From: Bacteroidaceae bacterium
Lineage (GTDB): Bacteria > Bacteroidota > Bacteroidia > Bacteroidales > Bacteroidaceae
DNA length: 61,967 nt
Direction: 5' to 3'
Assembly: GCA_024398665.1 (NCBI GenBank)
Contig: JAKSIS010000012.1
Location: forward strand, 1 to 61,967
Made by a program: the position numbers and the translations under genes. Positions 2,596 through 61,967 of this stretch are shown here, in pieces (the first letter of the stretch is position 1; every line of letters begins with the position of its first letter). The notes below the pieces were generated by a model. It ran no database searches. It was not told where the DNA came from and was given only the letters and a program-made list of their open reading frames with translations.

Positions 2596-3942
2596 TTATT
2601 GCATATTCGGATCCCAGACTGGGCGGATTGCACATTCGAGTTCCCGCACAACTACTGTCTTCAACTTATCCAGAATATAATTCATATCACTCATGTCACT
2701 TTCTTCCGAAAATATGCCCCAAAAATACCAGATTGGTTTAACATCGGCAGTCCAGTACTCATTTCGGCACACTTTTGTTTCGTCTGATACAGTTCCTGTC
2801 CACCTTCTATCATCGCCCATTTTCATTGAAACGGTCCCATTTGATATTACCGAATAACTATCATCTGCCATTCCTTCGTTTTTACCTGAACGATACCAAG
2901 ACCAGGTGGTATGTTCAATCAGCTCAACGAAATCATCTTTGGTTGGCATTCTCCATTTGCCGCCCAGATAGTAATGGGCAACGTCATAGCCGGTTCCGCT
3001 TATTTCATTTCCAATGTCAGTGTATCCTGGGGTATTCTTATCCATGAAATCATACAGATCTGCAGTGATGTTATGGTATGTTCCATAAGATTTCAACATA
3101 CCCCATGCATAACACACTCCATATTCATTCCATGATTCTGCACCGAGATCACGGTCAGCCCACAGAATACCGCTGGGCAGACCAAAATCAACCTTCATAT
3201 CTTCAGCAGACAGCGTAGAAAATGTTTCGACGGGACCGAATGCGGTTTCTCCCGTTGATTTGACCTTCAGATATGGACAGTAATAGTACGTGGCTCCTAC
3301 TTTCAGATTATTGAGGTCAACTTTCATTTTCCCGTCATTTGACAATTCACAGAGAATAAAAGACGTTTCACTTGAATTCATGTCACTTGTCATAGACAAT
3401 GCCATGCCTGGCGTGCAAAGATTGAGATCATTTTTGTCAGTAATTATGCTTGCGTCAACAGTTGCTGAATAATGCTTTATTCCAGTTGCCTTTCCTGTTG
3501 CCATGTCAGGTGCGAACTGATTGGTCTTGAAGTGGGTGATTCCGCTCATTTCAATCCTGCTTCCGTCTTCTGACTTGAAGAATACGCACATGGCGTATTC
3601 CGTGTCCGGTGAAAGATTTGTCAATGTCGCCTCATACTGTCCTGATGTGGTGGTGGAACCCTGTGTGAAGACTTTGCAGTCAGAGTTCTTCTCTCCGTTC
3701 CTCCAGGCCTGGAACAGCAAATCAGCATTCGCGCCATCCTCGCAGTACAACAGCCCGCGGCTGCCGTATTCAAGGTCCTTGTATGAAATACCATTGAACT
3801 GGACAGAAACTGTGGCGGTAAATGTCGTTACTTTTACATCATCAGAAAGTGATACAGGTGCCAGTTCCTGGCTGCTTTCTTCCTTTTCCCCGCACGCAGC
3901 GAACAAGAGTGCGATAATTGGTAAAGTTACTATTCTCTTCAT
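2596..3942 (-). CDS. Lipoprotein with Fn3-like repeats and a C-terminal FISUMP-like domain
   Basis: 448 aa. The N-terminus MKRIVTLPIIALLFAACGE has a lipobox with Cys17. Residues ~30-245 look like two beta-sandwich (Fn3-like) repeats, each with the 'L.P.T.Y..C.F' type strand pattern (LSPDTEYAMCVFF, LKVGATYYYCPYL). The C-terminal ~200 residues (VDFGLPSGILWADRDLGA ... HYYLGGKWRMPTKDDFVEL) match the Fibrobacter succinogenes major paralogous (FISUMP) domain common in Bacteroidales surface lipoproteins. It lies one base after the stop of the 3944-4951 gene and two bases before the O-antigen ligase-like gene, so co-transcription is very likely. Binding partner unknown. Confidence 0.88.
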   Translation of the reverse strand: MKRIVTLPIIALLFAACGEKEESSQELAPVSLSDDVKVTTFTATVSVQFNGISYKDLEYGSRGLLYCEDGANADLLFQAWRNGEKNSDCKVFTQGSTTTSGQYEATLTNLSPDTEYAMCVFFKSEDGSRIEMSGITHFKTNQFAPDMATGKATGIKHYSATVDASIITDKNDLNLCTPGMALSMTSDMNSSETSFILCELSNDGKMKVDLNNLKVGATYYYCPYLKVKSTGETAFGPVETFSTLSAEDMKVDFGLPSGILWADRDLGAESWNEYGVCYAWGMLKSYGTYHNITADLYDFMDKNTPGYTDIGNEISGTGYDVAHYYLGGKWRMPTKDDFVELIEHTTWSWYRSGKNEGMADDSYSVISNGTVSMKMGDDRRWTGTVSDETKVCRNEYWTADVKPIWYFWGIFSEESDMSDMNYILDKLKTVVVRELECAIRPVWDPNMQ

Positions 3943-3943
3943 C

Positions 3944-4951
3944 TTATAGGATTATTATTGAATCATTATCATTTGAATTTTTTCTAACTTTAAAAACAAG
4001 TGGATCTTTTCGAGGAATCTGGTTTATATGCGAATAACGTCCTATGCCATTGGTGAAATGTTCGCTCCATTTCTGCTCATTCATGTCATTCAAGTTTCCC
4101 AAATTATTTTCATCGAAACATCCTTCAGGACCTGCCCAGATTGCATATATGAACTCATAATTTGAATTATACTGAAATGTGTAACTGCCACACATCCACT
4201 TGTTGTCATATCCTTCAAATGCGCTACAATATGGCGAAATTCCTGCACTGTCACAGCAATATGTATACACTGTGCGATAATACCTATACAGATCATCCTC
4301 GTACGTATTATAGGTATGACTGTTCCAATGCCCGGAAACATGCCACGATACACCTGTAACTGCTCTTAATAGTCCGCTTTCAGTGTAGTAAACTTCATCA
4401 TGCCCATTGATGTTTTCCTGTAGTTCGGCATTTCCCAACATCAAAGCAAAACTTTCGCCACTATATCTGGAAATTGTGCCCATATTGAATAGCATATTGT
4501 CATACTCAAGTTCACCAGTCCTTTTATTGAATAATGCTATTGAGTAGAATGTATCAGTTCCGTATCTCCATGTCAACTGAACCAAATCGTAATCATCGGC
4601 ATGTTCGAGTAGTGTGTTTATTCTTTTACGCGCTTCGTTAGAAATACAAACAGTAGTAGATTGTGTCTTGCTGTAATTCATTATTTTAATTACAGAATCC
4701 TCTTTTGAGTATACAGGGAAATAACCGTTTTCCTTACTGAAAAATAGAGTACTGTCAACTTTGACATCGGTTAGCAGTTTATAACTGACGACTTCAATAT
4801 TCTGGCTTTTAAACCACTCTTTGTTGCATGAAACAATCTCCTCCAATGAAGTGTTCCATTCACAAGTGTCATCAAATTCAGGCAGGAAGTCATTTGAACA
4901 TGCGCATAAGAAACCTGCCAGCATTGTAATAATAAAATGTTTTGCTTTCAT
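3944..4951 (-). CDS. Surface lipoprotein of unknown function, paralogue of the gene at 1-969
   Basis: 335 aa, lipobox LCAC (Cys18). Aromatic and acidic composition with the blocks TWRYGTDTFYSIALFNKRTG, ELEYDNMLFNMGTISRYS and YEFIYAIWAGPEG shared with the paralogue at 1-969. Mature region is rich in Tyr/Asp/Asn and contains several Cys. No recognisable catalytic motif. It begins 21 bases after the transglutaminase-like gene and ends one base before the FISUMP gene. Function unknown; exported to the cell envelope by inference from the signal. Confidence 0.85.
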   Translation of the reverse strand: MKAKHFIITMLAGFLCACSNDFLPEFDDTCEWNTSLEEIVSCNKEWFKSQNIEVVSYKLLTDVKVDSTLFFSKENGYFPVYSKEDSVIKIMNYSKTQSTTVCISNEARKRINTLLEHADDYDLVQLTWRYGTDTFYSIALFNKRTGELEYDNMLFNMGTISRYSGESFALMLGNAELQENINGHDEVYYTESGLLRAVTGVSWHVSGHWNSHTYNTYEDDLYRYYRTVYTYCCDSAGISPYCSAFEGYDNKWMCGSYTFQYNSNYEFIYAIWAGPEGCFDENNLGNLNDMNEQKWSEHFTNGIGRYSHINQIPRKDPLVFKVRKNSNDNDSIIIL

Positions 4952-4953
4952 AT
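4839..4953 (-). repeat. Near-identical 115-bp gene-start repeat, copy 2
   Basis: Partner of 857-971; covers the start codon and signal-peptide region of the second paralogue. The few differences lie around signal-peptide codons 8-10. Confidence 0.9.
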
Positions 4954-4972
4954 TGATAATGTATAACCATTC

Positions 4973-6913
4973 TTACCACCATTCAACAACTCCGTCTTTG
5001 AATCTGAATACACGCTCATCCCATCCGCGTGTCCTGTCATGTAACCATAGCAATGTTCCTGCTGGTACATTTTCATATGTCAGAGCGTTGTCGCCCGCCT
5101 TACATATAGAATGTGTTACCCAGTAGTAACCGTCCCAAAACTTGAGCTCATATTCATCTCCTGGATGAATGTCATTGTCATCACCGCGAGGTACAATCCT
5201 GACAAAGCTTACAGTGACAGGTTTCCCGAAGTCCATACCTATCCAGTTTCCGTTGGGCTGGCCGGTCTCAAAATTGCTGAGCCAATCATCATCAAAAGCT
5301 TTCTTGGCTGTAGCCAGGTCTGCACCGGCTGAAAATATAGGACGGCCCTCAATCTTAATAGAATCATCGTCAAAGAATGCGAGTTCTGCCAGACTTCCGT
5401 ATGACCCGTCCGGTGAGACATACCGCCAATATCTGAATGGTGAACCGGCATCAATTGGAATCTTGTCAGGATAACAGGTCGAATCTACGGAATACACTAT
5501 CTCCGGATTTTGGAAAGTGGGACTATGCGATGCTTCAATCCTGCCACCTTTTGTCCTGTTTCTCATGGAAACAACGTTTTCAGAAGAATAGTACTTCCTT
5601 CTAATTACCACATCCTCTTTCTTGAAGAAATTGTAATTTACAAATTCTATGTCACCGTTCTTGTGAATGATAAAAGGTGAAGTCAAAGCCACAAGTTCAT
5701 TCCCATCATATCCCAAAGCAATATAGAGAATGTTCCTTCCCATTTTCCTGAACTGCGCGTGTCCTTTCCTGACAGTGCCATAATCAACTATGGTCCATTC
5801 ACTGGAATGGCCGTTGAATGTGGCAATATAAGCATAGTCTTCAACGAGTCTGACATTGTTCCTGATTTTTATGCTGACATCTGTTGTCTTGTAGTACCTG
5901 TCAGTTACATCTGTACAAAACAGACTGAAAGGATACTTGTATACAGAATTGTTGTGATATGGCACCCTGTCACGATTGATGGCATACGTATGTCGATAAA
6001 TCTTGGGAATGCGCTGGTATGGGAAGAACGGACTGCCGGGACATGATGAGATGTCCCATTCTGATGGCATTTCTTCTCCGTGATCATTCAGGAGAGTATA
6101 CCACAAATGACCGGCACGGTATCTACCCCATGAAGGAGTTTCTTCTATTATGACGGGAATGCCAAGACTTCTGAATGTCAGAACTCCCAGATTGACATAA
6201 TCCGTACATGTTCCGTATGTCATTCTGGACAAGGTAGATGCGCTTCGCATTGGATAACCGCAGCGATTGTACATTCCGACTGGATGAATTTTGCGAATCA
6301 GTTCTCCGCGTATAACATTAACAGCACGGAAAGGGGAGTCATAACTTTCGTCATCATACTCCATCATGTTTATGTCATCGGAGAATTTTATAGACATGGT
6401 ATCTCTCCAATTGTCAAAACTCTGAAGTTCTACGCATTTGTATGGTAATATCCATTCGCAGAATTCGTCAAATGTAAGATGCTGTGCCCAGCGTTCATTC
6501 TCCCATACCCAAAAGGCCTGATCAATATTTTTTATCAGGAAGTCGGCGGTGATTATTCTTGCATCCTGGACGGTCTCATTTTCCATACCGGAATATTGTC
6601 TTTCAGAAAGGGATAAAAGTGAATCACGTTGTTCTTTCGGACTCAAATTGGATGCGAAAAGTTCCAATGCATTCCGATAATAGTCATTAATGCGATGGCT
6701 TTTATATGAATAATGTCCAGGCATATTCTCAATGAGGAATCGGGCTGCAGCGTATTTCAGGGAATCAGAACTATAATGTTCAAGGACAGTTTCAAGTTCG
6801 CTTCTATTTGGACCGGCCAGTTCAAGCGCATAGTCAAGAGCTTTGTTGCCATTGTCAATACAGCATGACAACAAGGTGACTGATAAAAATAAGAGTACTT
6901 TGCTTTTTGTCAT
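4973..6913 (-). CDS. Lipoprotein with transglutaminase-like core and C-terminal discoidin (F5/8C)-like domain
   Basis: 646 aa. Signal with lipobox LLSC (Cys17). A helical N-terminal half leads to a transglutaminase-like papain-fold core at ~225-295 with the expected triad visible: Cys236 in YGTCTDYVNLG, His269 in RAGHLWYT, Asp287 in SEWDIS. A beta-rich middle follows, then at ~510-640 an F5/8C-type carbohydrate-binding domain (KKAFDDDWLSNFET, GNWIGMDFGKPVTVSFVRI). Such proteins are usually amidases/proteases or transglutaminases acting on surface protein or peptide; the substrate cannot be told from sequence. First gene of the minus-strand lipoprotein run. Confidence 0.9.
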   Translation of the reverse strand: MTKSKVLLFLSVTLLSCCIDNGNKALDYALELAGPNRSELETVLEHYSSDSLKYAAARFLIENMPGHYSYKSHRINDYYRNALELFASNLSPKEQRDSLLSLSERQYSGMENETVQDARIITADFLIKNIDQAFWVWENERWAQHLTFDEFCEWILPYKCVELQSFDNWRDTMSIKFSDDINMMEYDDESYDSPFRAVNVIRGELIRKIHPVGMYNRCGYPMRSASTLSRMTYGTCTDYVNLGVLTFRSLGIPVIIEETPSWGRYRAGHLWYTLLNDHGEEMPSEWDISSCPGSPFFPYQRIPKIYRHTYAINRDRVPYHNNSVYKYPFSLFCTDVTDRYYKTTDVSIKIRNNVRLVEDYAYIATFNGHSSEWTIVDYGTVRKGHAQFRKMGRNILYIALGYDGNELVALTSPFIIHKNGDIEFVNYNFFKKEDVVIRRKYYSSENVVSMRNRTKGGRIEASHSPTFQNPEIVYSVDSTCYPDKIPIDAGSPFRYWRYVSPDGSYGSLAELAFFDDDSIKIEGRPIFSAGADLATAKKAFDDDWLSNFETGQPNGNWIGMDFGKPVTVSFVRIVPRGDDNDIHPGDEYELKFWDGYYWVTHSICKAGDNALTYENVPAGTLLWLHDRTRGWDERVFRFKDGVVEWW

Positions 6914-57780: not shown

Positions 57781-57788
57781 TAACTTTG
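57781..57788 (+). promoter_or_regulatory. -7 box for the trp leader/trpB transcript
   Basis: TAACTTTG; predicted RNA start near 57795, giving a 175-base leader before trpB. Confidence 0.6.
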
Positions 57789-57810
57789 CTGCGAATAAAA
57801 GCGATGCAGC

Positions 57811-57873
57811 ATGATGAATTCAAGATTCTGGTGGTGGCAGTCTCAGACCGTACGATGGCGTGGGGTGGCATGA
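57811..57873 (+). CDS. trpL: Tryptophan leader peptide (attenuator), 20 codons
   Basis: ATG ATG AAT TCA AGA TTC TGG TGG TGG CAG ... TGG ... TGA: the peptide begins MMNSRFWWWQSQ and has four Trp in 20 residues, three in a row (codons 57829-57837) and one at 57856. Trp is the rarest residue, so such a run between a promoter and an intrinsic terminator upstream of trpB is hard to explain by chance. Ribosome stalling at these codons when charged tRNA-Trp is low would free 57860-57868 to form an antiterminator. No Shine-Dalgarno is visible, as is common here. Too short for normal gene callers. Confidence 0.8.
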   Translation: MMNSRFWWWQSQTVRWRGVA

Positions 57874-57903
57874 ACCGTATCAGAAACTGATTGAATTCTT
57901 CAA

Positions 57904-57944
57904 GTCCGTCCCCGCATGAATGATGAGAGGCGGACATTTTTTTT
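57904..57944 (+). terminator. Attenuator terminator upstream of trpB
   Basis: GTCCGTC at 57904-57910 pairs with GGCGGAC at 57929-57935 (one wobble), then A and eight T, 27 bases before the trpB ATG. The competing partner is GTGGGGTGG at 57860-57868, which can pair with 57906-57915 (nine pairs, one bulge) and so break the terminator's left arm. Confidence 0.8.
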
Positions 57945-57971
57945 ATAATCCGAAAATAAACGAAACGCAAT

Positions 57972-59333
57972 ATGAAACAGAAGAGATTTTTCCTGAGTGA
58001 GTCCGAAATTCCGACACAGTGGTACAACATACAGGCCGATATGCCCAACAAGCCCATGCCGCTCAAGAACCCCAAGACCGGTGAAGCCATGAAGGCCGAG
58101 GACCTGTTCCCCATTTTCGCACAGGAATGCAGCCGTCAGGAACTGGACCAGACCCACAAATGGATAGACATACCTGAAAAGGTCCGTGAAATGTACACCT
58201 ACTACCGCAGCACCCCGCTGGTCCGCGCATACGGACTGGAAGAGGCCCTTGGCACTCCCGCACACATCTATTTCAAGAACGAGAGCGTAAGCCCGGTAGG
58301 TTCGCACAAACTGAATTCAGCCATTGCGCAGGCCTATTACTGCAAGCAGGAGGGTGTGACCAACGTCACCACTGAAACCGGTGCCGGACAGTGGGGCACA
58401 GCCCTTTCATATGCTGCAAAGGTGTTCGGACTTGAGGCCGCCGTCTACCAGGTCAAGATAAGCTATGAGCAGAAACCCTACCGCCGCAACATGATGCAGG
58501 TCTTCGGGGCCCAGGTAACTCCTTCACCTTCAATGTCAACACGCGCCGGAAAGGATATCCTTACCGCCACGCCCAACCATAACGGTTCGCTTGGCACTGC
58601 CATTTCTGAAGCCGTAGAACTGGCCCGCACCACACCCAACTGCAAGTACACGCTGGGATCAGTCATGAGCCACGTGTCGCTGCACCAGACAGTCATCGGA
58701 CTTGAGGCCGAAAAGCAGATGGAAATGGCGGGTGAATATCCCGATGAGATTATTGCATGCTTTGGCGGCGGTTCGAATTTTGCCGGTCTGGCATTCCCGT
58801 TCATGCGCCACATATTCAGCGGTGAGCGCAAAGGCACGCGTTTCATTGCAGCTGAACCGGCTTCATGCCCCAAACTGACCAAGGGCCGTTTCATGTATGA
58901 TTTCGGTGACGAGGCCGGTTACACCCCCATGCTGCCCATGTTCACCCTGGGCCACAAGTTCGCTCCGGCAAACATTCATGCCGGCGGACTGCGCTACCAC
59001 GGTGCCGGCGTGATAGTGTCACAGCTTCTCAAGGACGGATTCATGGAGGCCATTGACGTTGACCAGATTGAGACTTTCGATGCAGGCATGCTGTTCGCCC
59101 GCACTGAAGGCATTGTGCCGGCTCCTGAATCATGCCATGCCATAGCCGCTACCATACGCCGCGCCAAAGAGTGCCGTGAGACAGGTGAAAGCAAGGTCCT
59201 GCTGTTCAACCTGACCGGGCACGGACTTATGGACATGAGCGCTTACAACCAGTATCTGGCAGGCAACCTTATGAACTATTCCATGAGCGAGGACGATGTT
59301 ACAGCCTCACTCATGAAACAGAATATGATCTGA
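57972..59333 (+). CDS. trpB: Tryptophan synthase beta chain, TrpB2 type
   Basis: 453 aa, longer than TrpB1 and with the TrpB2 layout. PLP lysine Lys113 in VGSHKLNSA, substrate loop TETGAGQWGTAL, phosphate-binding GGGSNF, and C-terminal FNLTGHGLMDMSAY. It joins indole and serine to tryptophan. No trpA or other trp gene is near, in line with TrpB2 proteins that can act alone on free indole. The upstream Trp-rich leader and terminator indicate control by tryptophan supply. The glutamine synthetase gene follows after two bases. Confidence 0.95.
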   Translation: MKQKRFFLSESEIPTQWYNIQADMPNKPMPLKNPKTGEAMKAEDLFPIFAQECSRQELDQTHKWIDIPEKVREMYTYYRSTPLVRAYGLEEALGTPAHIYFKNESVSPVGSHKLNSAIAQAYYCKQEGVTNVTTETGAGQWGTALSYAAKVFGLEAAVYQVKISYEQKPYRRNMMQVFGAQVTPSPSMSTRAGKDILTATPNHNGSLGTAISEAVELARTTPNCKYTLGSVMSHVSLHQTVIGLEAEKQMEMAGEYPDEIIACFGGGSNFAGLAFPFMRHIFSGERKGTRFIAAEPASCPKLTKGRFMYDFGDEAGYTPMLPMFTLGHKFAPANIHAGGLRYHGAGVIVSQLLKDGFMEAIDVDQIETFDAGMLFARTEGIVPAPESCHAIAATIRRAKECRETGESKVLLFNLTGHGLMDMSAYNQYLAGNLMNYSMSEDDVTASLMKQNMI

Positions 59334-59335
59334 CA

Positions 59336-61522
59336 ATGGGAAAACTCAGGTTCGATGTCGTTCAGGACGCCTTCAAGAAGAAGGCTGTAAAGGTTGAAAT
59401 GCCTCAGGCGCGTCCGTCGGACTATTTCGGCGAACTGGTGTTCAACCGCGAAAAGATGCGCCGTTACCTTGATGCCAAGACTTTCAGGGAATTGACTGAC
59501 TGCATTGACAACGGCCGTCCGCTTGACCGCAAGACGGCTGACGGTGTTGCGCAGGGCATGAAGACCTGGGCCATTGAACACGGAGTAACCCATATCTCAC
59601 ACTGGTTCCAGCCGCTTACTGAAGGGACGGCGGAAAAGCATGACTCCTTCCTGGAGTACGGCCGTGACGGCGGAATGATTGAAACTTTTGACGGCAAGTC
59701 GCTTGCCCAGCAGGAACCTGACGCATCATCATTTCCCAACGGCGGCATACGCGCCACGTTCGAAGCGCGCGGATATACGGCCTGGGACCCCACGTCGCCC
59801 GTCTTCATCCAGGATGACACGCTGTGCATTCCGTCGCTGTTCATATCATACACCGGCGAGGCACTGGACTACAAGACTCCCCTGAAACGCTCCCTGAAGG
59901 CCGTCAATGACGCGGCTCTGCCCATATGCAGGCTTTTTGATCCGTCAGTAGGCAAGGTCATAAACTTTCTGGGATGGGAACAGGAGTATTTCCTGGTCGA
60001 TGAGGACCTCTTTGCCGCACGTCCCGACCTGATGCTGACCGGACGCACGCTGTTCGGACATGAGGCGTCGAAGAACCAGCAGCTTGACGACCATTATTTC
60101 GGTGCCATACCTTCACGCGTGGCCGCATTCATGCGTGACGTTGAGATAGCAGGCTACCGTCTGGGCATTCCGCTCAAGACACGTCATAACGAAGCTGCGC
60201 CCAACCAGTTCGAAATGGCACCCATATACGGCGAGGCGAATCTTGCCAATGACCAGAACCAGATGATAATGAACGTCATGAAGAATATGGCGCGCAAACA
60301 CGGGTTCGTGCTGCTGCTTCATGAAAAGCCGTTCGCCGGAATCAACGGTTCGGGCAAACACAACAACTGGTCGCTTGGGACCGATACCGGCGTCCAGCTT
60401 ATGGCTCCGGGCAAGGATGCCATGGGCAATCTGCAGTTCATCACCTTCTTTGTGAATGTGCTTGCTGCGGTACAGAAATACAATTCGCTTCTCAAGGCAT
60501 CAATCGCCACGGCCACCAATGCGCACCGCCTTGGGGCCAACGAGGCTCCGCCGGCCATTGTATCGGCCTTCCTTGGAAAGACCATGACCGATGTCCTGCA
60601 CAAGCTGCTTGAACTGCCGTCAGACACACCCATTGAGATTGCCGGCAAGACCGGCGCATCGCTGGGTCTGGTCGAAATACCGGAAATCTTCATTGACAAC
60701 ACGGACCGCAACCGCACGTCGCCGTTCGCATTCACCGGCAACCGCTTCGAATTCCGTGCTGTGGGCTCCAGCGCCAACTGTGCCGGCGCCGTCACTACGC
60801 TGAACGCTGCCGTGGCTGACCAGCTGAAACTGTTCAAGTCACAGCTGGATGAACGTCTTGCACAGGGGGCGGCCCTTAATGTGGGCATCATGGATACGCT
60901 CAAGCCCATAATAGCCTCCATTCTGGATGTGATTTGCTTTGACGGCAACGGCTACAGTGAAGAATGGCACCGTGAGGCAGAACGGCGCGGGCTGGATACA
61001 GAGACCAGCGTTCCGGAAATGATAGCCGCTTATCTGCATCCTGATTCTGTGGCCATGTTCGCCCGCACCGGCATATACACCGCCAAGGAACTTGAGGCGC
61101 GCAATGAGGTCAAGTGGAACACCTACACCAAGAAAATCCAGATTGAGGCCAGGGTTATGGGACGCATGGCCACGAACCATATCATTCCCGCTGCTGAGTC
61201 GTATCAGAGCGTGCTGCTCAGAAACCTGTCGCTCATGAAGGATGTCATGCCTGATGAATTCGCATCGGTCGGTGCCGCAAACCTTGATACCGTAAGGCGC
61301 ATTTCATTCCTGACTGCTGAAATACGCCGTCAGGTCGATGCCATGGTGGAGGAACGCAAAAAGGCCAATGTGATAGAGTCTGAATATGAGAAAGCCAGGG
61401 CTTATCATGAAATAGCTGAATCGCTGGTTCCCATACGCCGTCTTGTCGATGAACTGGAGGAAATTACCGACAATGACGCATGGCCGCTGCCTAAATACCG
61501 TGAGTTGCTGTTTATCAACTGA
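59336..61522 (+). CDS. glnN: Glutamine synthetase type III
   Basis: 728 aa, the size of GSIII. N-terminal VFNREKMRRYL and THISHWFQPLTEGTAEKHDSF; active-site blocks GWEQEYFLVDEDLF, RHNEAAPNQFEMAPIYGEAN, GINGSGKHNNWSLGTDTG, NRTSPFAFTGNRFEFRAVGSSAN. The C-terminal part is helical. It makes glutamine from glutamate, ammonium and ATP. Placed two bases after trpB, so it is probably read from the same transcript and would then also feel the Trp attenuator, unless it has an internal promoter. Confidence 0.97.
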   Translation: MGKLRFDVVQDAFKKKAVKVEMPQARPSDYFGELVFNREKMRRYLDAKTFRELTDCIDNGRPLDRKTADGVAQGMKTWAIEHGVTHISHWFQPLTEGTAEKHDSFLEYGRDGGMIETFDGKSLAQQEPDASSFPNGGIRATFEARGYTAWDPTSPVFIQDDTLCIPSLFISYTGEALDYKTPLKRSLKAVNDAALPICRLFDPSVGKVINFLGWEQEYFLVDEDLFAARPDLMLTGRTLFGHEASKNQQLDDHYFGAIPSRVAAFMRDVEIAGYRLGIPLKTRHNEAAPNQFEMAPIYGEANLANDQNQMIMNVMKNMARKHGFVLLLHEKPFAGINGSGKHNNWSLGTDTGVQLMAPGKDAMGNLQFITFFVNVLAAVQKYNSLLKASIATATNAHRLGANEAPPAIVSAFLGKTMTDVLHKLLELPSDTPIEIAGKTGASLGLVEIPEIFIDNTDRNRTSPFAFTGNRFEFRAVGSSANCAGAVTTLNAAVADQLKLFKSQLDERLAQGAALNVGIMDTLKPIIASILDVICFDGNGYSEEWHREAERRGLDTETSVPEMIAAYLHPDSVAMFARTGIYTAKELEARNEVKWNTYTKKIQIEARVMGRMATNHIIPAAESYQSVLLRNLSLMKDVMPDEFASVGAANLDTVRRISFLTAEIRRQVDAMVEERKKANVIESEYEKARAYHEIAESLVPIRRLVDELEEITDNDAWPLPKYRELLFIN

Positions 61523-61668: not shown

Positions 61669-61762
61669 GGTTCGGACCCCAGAATTTGCGATAAATTGCA
61701 AGGTCCACTCCATGAGGGAAACGCCCTCTGGAGGAAATTGAAAAAACTGAGTTCACGCGAGT

Positions 61763-61803
61763 GAATTCATTTTTTTTGCCCCTTGGGCAAAAAAAATGAA
61801 TTC
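61763..61803. repeat. Perfect 19-bp inverted repeat with three-base loop
   Basis: GAATTCATTTTTTTTGCCC, loop CTT, GGGCAAAAAAAATGAATTC. Confidence 0.95.
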
Positions 61804-61967
61804 GGTAAACCTTATTTTATTTCGCTCCGCGAAAGGGCGGCTTCCAGCCGCTACGCCTTGCTGCGCAAGGCTATTGGTATTTGCCCCTTGGGCAAAAAAA
61901 AATGAATTCGGTAAACCTTGTTTTATTTCGCTCCGCGAAAGGGCGGCTTCCAGCCGCTACGCCTTGC
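61775..61967. repeat. 105-bp tandem repeat of short hairpins, cut by the window edge
   Basis: Unit 61775-61879 recurs from 61880 to the edge (88 bases) with one extra A and one substitution. Each unit is a string of stems with three-base loops: TTTGCCC/GGGCAAA, TTTCGC/GCGAAA, GCGGCT/AGCCGC and GCCTTGC/GCAAGGC. Confidence 0.93.

Follow-up and report, generated by a model that had tools for sequence, protein, structure and literature searches.

The trpL attenuator of Escherichia coli (Yanofsky) combines Trp codons with the helices 1:2, 2:3, and 3:4 and uses the position of the ribosome as the switch. For the Bacteroidetes, Weinberg et al. (2010, PMC2864571) include the Bacteroid-trp motif in their Table 1 and take it for a likely cis-regulatory RNA, and Rfam names the family RF01692 tryptophan peptide leader. 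This motif entry was all that we found on amino acid attenuation in Bacteroidetes in a literature search that left subscription journals mostly outside its scope, and leaders of such kind with Tyr, Ile, or Phe/Tyr codons were likewise not described for this phylum in the papers searched. Attenuation of this kind is known in the phylum through Bacteroid-trp, and the leader analyzed here would, to judge from its sequence, be a variant that lies outside RF01692.

The window, as we call the whole analyzed stretch of 61,967 nucleotides, contains this leader ahead of trpB2. With a probability of roughly 0.88, we consider it to be a ribosome-mediated transcription attenuator that permits transcription of trpB2 when charged Trp-tRNA is short. 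The parts, their conservation, their covariation, and their folding behavior are direct observations, and the parts are the following:

57781 to 57788, + strand: TAACTTTG box, from its sequence the predicted -7 promoter box of the Bacteroidetes type (TAnnTTTG)
57811 to 57873, + strand: leader ORF MMNSRFWWWQSQTVRWRGVA*, 20 codons, with the C-terminal RWRG[VA]A common to nine loci including the window
57829 to 57837, + strand: Trp control codons TGGTGGTGG (TGG run), from the sequence
57847 to 57854, + strand: segment 1 (ACCGTACG), partner of 57859-57866
57856 to 57858, + strand: fourth TGG of the leader ORF, from the sequence
57859 to 57868, + strand: segment 2 (CGTGGGGTGG), used in both hairpin 1:2 and antiterminator 2:3
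57879 to 57891, + strand: small hairpin ATCAG AAA CTGAT between leader stop and terminator
57904 to 57915, + strand: segment 3, 5' arm of the terminator and partner of segment 2
57929 to 57935, + strand: segment 4, 3' arm of the terminator
57937 to 57944, + strand: T-run of the intrinsic terminator, 8 T, from the sequence
57972 to 59333, + strand: trpB2, TrpB-like PLP enzyme, the regulated gene (NF009057, TIGR01415, PF00291)
59336 to 61522, + strand: glnN, type III glutamine synthetase (PF12437, PF18318, PF00120), 2 bases behind trpB2

The first-pass annotation had named the box, the 20-codon ORF, the TGG run with the fourth TGG, the terminator, and trpB2, all with correct coordinates. TAnnTTTG is the -7 consensus of Bacteroidetes-type promoters, and the transcript would start a few bases 3' of TAACTTTG. 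The leader stop codon is at 57871, the terminator stem consists of 57904-57910 paired with 57929-57935, and 27 bases separate the terminator end from trpB2. An intrinsic terminator ahead of the structural gene is present, as in a classical attenuator, and so is a short leader ORF rich in codons for the amino acid under control. A simple terminator scan did not list the window terminator, the loop of which exceeds the length that the scan permits. For the hairpin at 57879-57891, comparable hairpins of different sequence were found in relatives (67.3% of cells paired in a poor alignment), and it may have a pause or spacer role. Near the end of the contig, within 61740-61967 of the window, we also noticed by eye a repeat of about 65 bases or more (tgaattcggtaaacctt...cgccttgc).

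Just as had been claimed, the antiterminator pairs GTGGGGTGG at 57860-57868 with 57906-57915; this duplex has one bulged base and an energy of -15.1 kcal/mol. The same annotation had missed a 1:2 hairpin; this hairpin exists, formed by 57847-57854 with 57859-57866 (a 26-base piece folds at -8.9 kcal/mol), and release therefore need not depend on ribosome masking alone.

Single features of the window leader are not exceptional. Among 60 shuffled versions of the window, 12 contained at least one short ORF with WWW, and folding of the leader by itself gave a z score of -1.42, with 18 of 200 shuffles equally good. As the WWW ORF by itself is explicable by chance, conservation decides. A second short WWW ORF of the window, at 3624-3668 (MSPHTVLMWWWNPV), is probably a chance occurrence.

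We therefore read the regions upstream of trpB2 at 63 loci from 101 genomes, namely the window's own and those of 100 relatives. The genus was taken as Candidatus Colenecus of the Bacteroidaceae, which PMC8957277 equates with GTDB UBA1179; most of the genomes are incomplete MAGs, and the window's genome is 84% complete. Among the 28 readable trpB2 loci of the genus, nine had leaders of the RWRG[VA]A type, 13 had other Trp leaders, and six had none that we recognized. Twelve of the 13 other leaders contain WWW and one contains FFFFWW; the latter, a mixed run of Phe and Trp codons, lies ahead of trpB2 at L026 (genome G032). The eight RWRG leaders besides that of the window have two or three Trp codons ahead of the common RWRG. 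All nine keep Trp codons, segment 2, and terminator, and this comparison supports the proposed trp attenuation logic.

A search for the core CGATGGCGYGGRGYGGC, which tolerated up to one mismatch, gave one match each in nine of 37 genus genomes, all of them free of mismatches and all ahead of trpB2. The reversed pattern gave six matches in six genomes at the same tolerance, so the bare count tells little, whereas the location before trpB2 tells much. Seven of the nine leaders carry the 25 bases ACCGTACGATGGCGTGGGGTGGCAT without any variation, even at synonymous sites, and the upstream half of the Trp leaders is variable with the Trp codons retained. The loci L013 and L015 have a divergent core, in which segments 1 and 3 show changes that match several of those in segment 2 and some pairs are lost. 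The TAnnTTTG box was found 5' of the leader in 9/9 leaders of the RWRG type, and in trpB2 genes without a leader it often lies 34-60 bases ahead of the start codon. A covariance model built from the nine Trp leaders (R1) gave one strong match per genome.

We built a tree from 72 TrpB2 proteins, in which the nine RWRG loci fell into one supported clade of 11 (98/90) together with two leaderless genes, the close trpB2 genes of G024 and G030 (89% and 88% identical). The RWRG label needs two changes on this tree, most simply one gain and one loss, and the genus loci with other Trp leaders fall into a trpB2 lineage apart from this clade. Relatives without the Trp codons or the terminator had been named as evidence against attenuation; G024 and G030 are such cases, but nine loci keep the leader.

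The position of the window element, ahead of a Trp gene in Bacteroidetes, agrees with Bacteroid-trp, and we asked whether RF01692 is its identity. The RF01692 model did not match the window leader at E values up to 10 in its own genome or up to 5 within 1.5 kb, it matched none of the nine RWRG loci at E values up to 10, and its gathering cut-off of 49 bits was not reached. As the element fails this score, it is not filed there, though it seems to work similarly. That it is nevertheless a diverged member of RF01692 is a question of descent that is compatible with attenuation, and we regard such an origin as unlikely. It would fit that RF01692 scored above its cut-off before trpB2 in two other genomes of the genus (G013, 49.9 bits; G023, 49.2 bits; more matches fell below the cut-off), so that both kinds of leader serve one gene. 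Besides the missing matches, the two kinds of leader are found on different branches of the trpB2 tree, and, by our reading, the RF01692 type of the genus has its likely antiterminator strand behind the leader stop, where the leader analyzed here has it ahead of the stop, which argues against common descent.

The attenuator arrangement was also found with other codons. When the 37 genus genomes were searched with R1, the best further match was a site in G016 ahead of a phenylacetate-CoA ligase-like gene, with an E value of 0.0024 for one genome and hence about 0.09 over 37; G028 and G034 had weaker matches at the corresponding site. The G016 leader reads MRVNSYIGYYYYYYRT*. Other weak matches of R1 (L192-L196, L200, and L201) were plain terminators or had no leader. 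The protein scored 456.9 bits against the curated PaaK cut-off of 646.3, so that the name paaK is given by resemblance. A Tyr-rich leader precedes the paaK-like gene at 15 of the 36 genus loci read, from which count L234, which has a leader with some Tyr codons and a terminator, was excluded; at 18 of the 21 loci outside this count, a TAnnTTTG box lies 34-46 bases ahead of the gene. The window's own genome has such a Tyr-codon attenuator, MKFVSASYYYYYYRT*, ahead of its paaK-like gene (L205; L232, C12:34000-46000). The pattern ACCGnACG....CGTGGGG is common to the Trp core and most of the Tyr leaders before paaK.

These Tyr leaders permitted a joint alignment of 21 leaders, nine Trp and 12 Tyr, the latter being 12 of the 15 paaK leaders (L204, a near copy of L203, as well as L237 and L238 were left out). 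Helix 1:2 was paired in 89.7% of cells, with three pairs changed on both sides (14/500 shuffles as high) and a covariation of 0.252 versus 0.153 in shuffles (0/500 as high). For helix 2:3, 91.8% of cells were paired, with three pairs changed on both sides (104/500) and a covariation of 0.267 (10/500), and helix 3:4 had 81.4% of cells paired, five pairs changed on both sides (3/500), and a covariation of 0.354 (0/500); the shuffles ignore relatedness, and slid controls, in which it is preserved, gave lower values for every helix. The mutually exclusive helices 1:2, 2:3, and 3:4 are backed by compensatory changes across the 21 leaders. An alignment of the trpB2 upstream regions of relatives had been proposed as a check on the reading, and its outcome is favorable, with Trp codons and terminator kept in nine leaders and the compensatory changes coming from the joint alignment. 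In the nine Trp leaders alone, helix 2:3 was not above letter shuffles (75/500), and it was 85.2% paired in register versus 44-53% when slid, counts that are rough as the 3' parts of L001, L005, and L008 are poorly aligned.

We also compared the 2:3 duplex of single leaders with shuffled sequences. That of the window was matched by 3.2% of 1000 dinucleotide shuffles, and the fractions were 0.003-0.032 in the window, L013, and L015, and 0.032 or less in the 12 Tyr leaders. They were marginal (0.07-0.12) in L003, L004, L006, and L009, and in L005 and L008 the duplex was no better than shuffles (0.52 and 0.54).

TnaC is an arrest peptide that senses free tryptophan. The leader peptide of the window could in principle act in the same way, with the RWRG[VA]A tail as the sensor of free tryptophan, rather than report a shortage of Trp-tRNA, and the retention of this tail across both subgroups despite several codon differences would suit such a function. 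We hold this to be very improbable, as the invariance of synonymous sites in seven of the nine leaders points to the RNA, several (not all) of the substitutions that set L013 and L015 apart preserve 1:2 and 2:3 pairs, the Tyr leaders with a similar core carry other tails (RT*, RD*, and RN*), and a biosynthetic gene is expected to respond to a lack of tryptophan and not to free tryptophan.

To follow the proposed attenuator at work, we folded the nine Trp leaders with masks that mimicked ribosome positions. With segment 1 covered and RNA polymerase just past segment 3, 5.5-7.8 expected 2:3 pairs formed in 9/9 leaders. With segment 2 covered, there were zero 2:3 pairs and 5.7-10.1 terminator pairs. 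The folds agree with the masking logic that had been suggested for the ribosome at the moment when the polymerase has just passed segment 3. The full RNA without a ribosome formed the terminator in 9/9 and hairpin 1:2 in 8/9 leaders. In the stalled state, full-length RNA at equilibrium favored the terminator in five of nine leaders, including that of the window (1.4 pairs in 2:3 versus 7.3 pairs in 3:4), and kept 2:3 in four. As the full-length stalled fold reverts to the terminator in these five, the switch must be kinetic and co-transcriptional. Without a ribosome and with the polymerase just past segment 3, 2:3 already formed in L008 (5.4 pairs) and partially in L005 and L006 (2.0 and 2.2 pairs). 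This outcome and the return of the stalled full-length RNA to the terminator both speak against a simple version of the mechanism.

The geometry of the ribosome differs somewhat among the leaders. According to PMC4833913, a ribosome covers up to 12 bases downstream. In six relatives, a Trp codon lies two codons 5' of the Thr codon that opens segment 1, which would place a stalled ribosome over segment 1. The Trp run of the window, by contrast, stops 9 bases 5' of segment 1, so that a stalled ribosome would reach only the first bases of it. The leader stop of L013 and L015 is more than 20 bases beyond segment 2, and the mask used was not at their true stop; a ribosome at the stop would leave segment 2 bare in these two, and hairpin 1:2 would have to act.

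From the leader sequences, we predict ribosome stalling, termination or read-through, and regulation by tryptophan as follows. With ample tryptophan, the ribosome would reach the stop at 57871 and cover segment 2, the terminator 3:4 would form, and RNA polymerase would halt near 57944. With scarce tryptophan, the ribosome would stall in the Trp run and disturb segment 1, which would leave segment 2 free for the emerging segment 3, and the terminator would be pre-empted. If the leader were not translated, 1:2 would form, and so would the terminator. The regulated target would be an enzyme of indole-to-tryptophan salvage in a lineage that seems to be without the rest of the Trp pathway.

A joint covariance model of the Trp and Tyr leaders (R2) extended the set of leaders further. 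In 11 genomes of the genus, it led to 11 loci (L271-L281) with MRLQGFIIISIIIPDCRCEEA* or close forms, i.e., Ile codons such as in IIISIII, and a terminator. The gene behind these leaders is taken as leuA; one copy, that at L279, was checked by profile search and is a 2-isopropylmalate synthase. Eight of the 11 Ile leaders were aligned, two of them shortened at the 5' end. Further R2 matches at L270 (in the window's own genome, E value of 3.2e-5), L282, and L283 were plain terminators or had no leader.

Among 251 Bacteroidaceae genomes, 33 had an R2 match at E values up to 0.001, distributed over 12 of 30 genera and including the window's genus and a few false matches. Outside the genus, we read 22 loci, which comprised 16 Phe/Tyr leaders, four Tyr leaders before a sodium:solute symporter, and two without such a leader (L303 and L304, plain terminators or no leader). 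The Phe/Tyr leaders (e.g., SYFYFYFTTK*; L289, L291-L302, and L305-L307) came from nine other Bacteroidaceae genera, and 15 of the 16 lie ahead of a gene with a prephenate dehydratase start (pheA), the remaining one being at a contig end. The one prephenate dehydratase copy checked passes the Pfam PDT cut-off and fails that of NCBIfam. In an alignment of 15 of these 16 leaders (L296, a near copy of L292, was left out), their own 1:2 hairpin was 97.3% paired, A-U changed to G-C in 4/15, and covariation was modestly above shuffles (40/500). The four leaders with Tyr runs before the symporter gene were those of L286, L287, L288, and L290; their position suggests a tyrosine transporter, and the one symporter copy checked passes Pfam SSF.

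A terminator with a constant effect, which only stops or damps transcription behind an incidental Trp-rich ORF, would account for the WWW ORFs in 12 of 60 window shuffles and for a z score of only -1.42, but we consider this explanation very improbable, as nine leaders retain Trp codons in one stretch while the surrounding codons vary, three mutually exclusive helices show compensatory changes, and Tyr, Ile, and Phe/Tyr runs occur in much the same layout, each ahead of genes to which its amino acid is suited.

It appears an even wager that the Bacteroidaceae possess a modular attenuation chassis that controls salvage and synthesis of several amino acids through swapped codon runs, i.e., Trp before trpB2, Tyr before paaK and the symporter gene, Phe/Tyr before pheA, and Ile before leuA, in which segment 2 would pair either backward with the leader strand or forward with the terminator, and in which the Trp and Tyr copies are similar enough for one element copied from gene to gene in the window's lineage. 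If this is true, attenuation would be one of the chief means by which that lineage senses a shortage of aromatic amino acids. The wider set of leaders is the more interesting outcome, and those before pheA can be tested in cultivable Bacteroides.

The regulated gene itself, trpB2, scored 689 bits for NF009057 (cut-off 366) and 592 bits for TIGR01415 (cut-off 518.85). TrpA and IGPS (TrpC) gave no match in any of the 11 genomes of the window's trpB2 clade, i.e., the nine with the leader and the leaderless G024 and G030, three of which are 96-98% complete, and in each of them trpB2 was the sole TrpB match. Within the 37 genus genomes, TrpA was found in 17 and IGPS in 17. As the clade has neither TrpA nor TrpC nor another TrpB, trpB2 is probably an indole-salvage enzyme, and it is probably the only tryptophan-forming enzyme of the clade, fed by indole from outside. 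With a TrpB2 of B. thetaiotaomicron, an E. coli trpA mutant had a growth benefit near wild-type cells, which the authors read as the use of secreted indole (PMC11535334). The window's trpB2 may likewise make tryptophan from indole. Attenuation would then be tied to the salvage of indole by gut bacteria that seem to have no other route to tryptophan, a tie that makes it testable how they respond to these two compounds in the gut.

The first-pass annotation had extended tryptophan control from trpB2 to, probably, glnN. For trpB2, this is supported by the comparison, but the glnN part did not generalize. Only two of the nine leader genomes (G000 and G031) have glnN directly behind trpB2, and in two more (G035 and G003) it lies one gene further, with G016 and G027 covered over about 1.5 kb downstream only. 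In the window, glnN is probably co-transcribed with trpB2 and its control by tryptophan is possible; a conserved feature it is not. In two relatives, at L094 and L098, a 630-aa gene at about 4372-6267 between trpB2 and glnN resembles, by eye, a glutamine-dependent NAD synthetase.

Compared with the window leader, the Tyr (paaK), Ile (leuA), Phe/Tyr (pheA), and Tyr (symporter) leaders have a similar order of parts with other codon runs and other genes, and the Ile and Phe/Tyr leaders differ from the Trp leader in the sequence of segment 2. With E. coli trpL, the window leader has in common the Trp codons, the helices 1:2, 2:3, and 3:4, and the predicted switch by ribosome position, a likeness of layout; unlike in trpL, segment 2 is part of the coding region, an extra small hairpin is present between the stop and segment 3, and the target is a salvage gene rather than the trp operon. 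Bacteroid-trp (RF01692) is likewise a Trp-codon leader RNA of Bacteroidetes that also occurs ahead of trpB2 genes of the genus, but the core of the window leader differs from it, and the antiterminator strand is located inside the coding part in the window leader and probably after the stop in RF01692.
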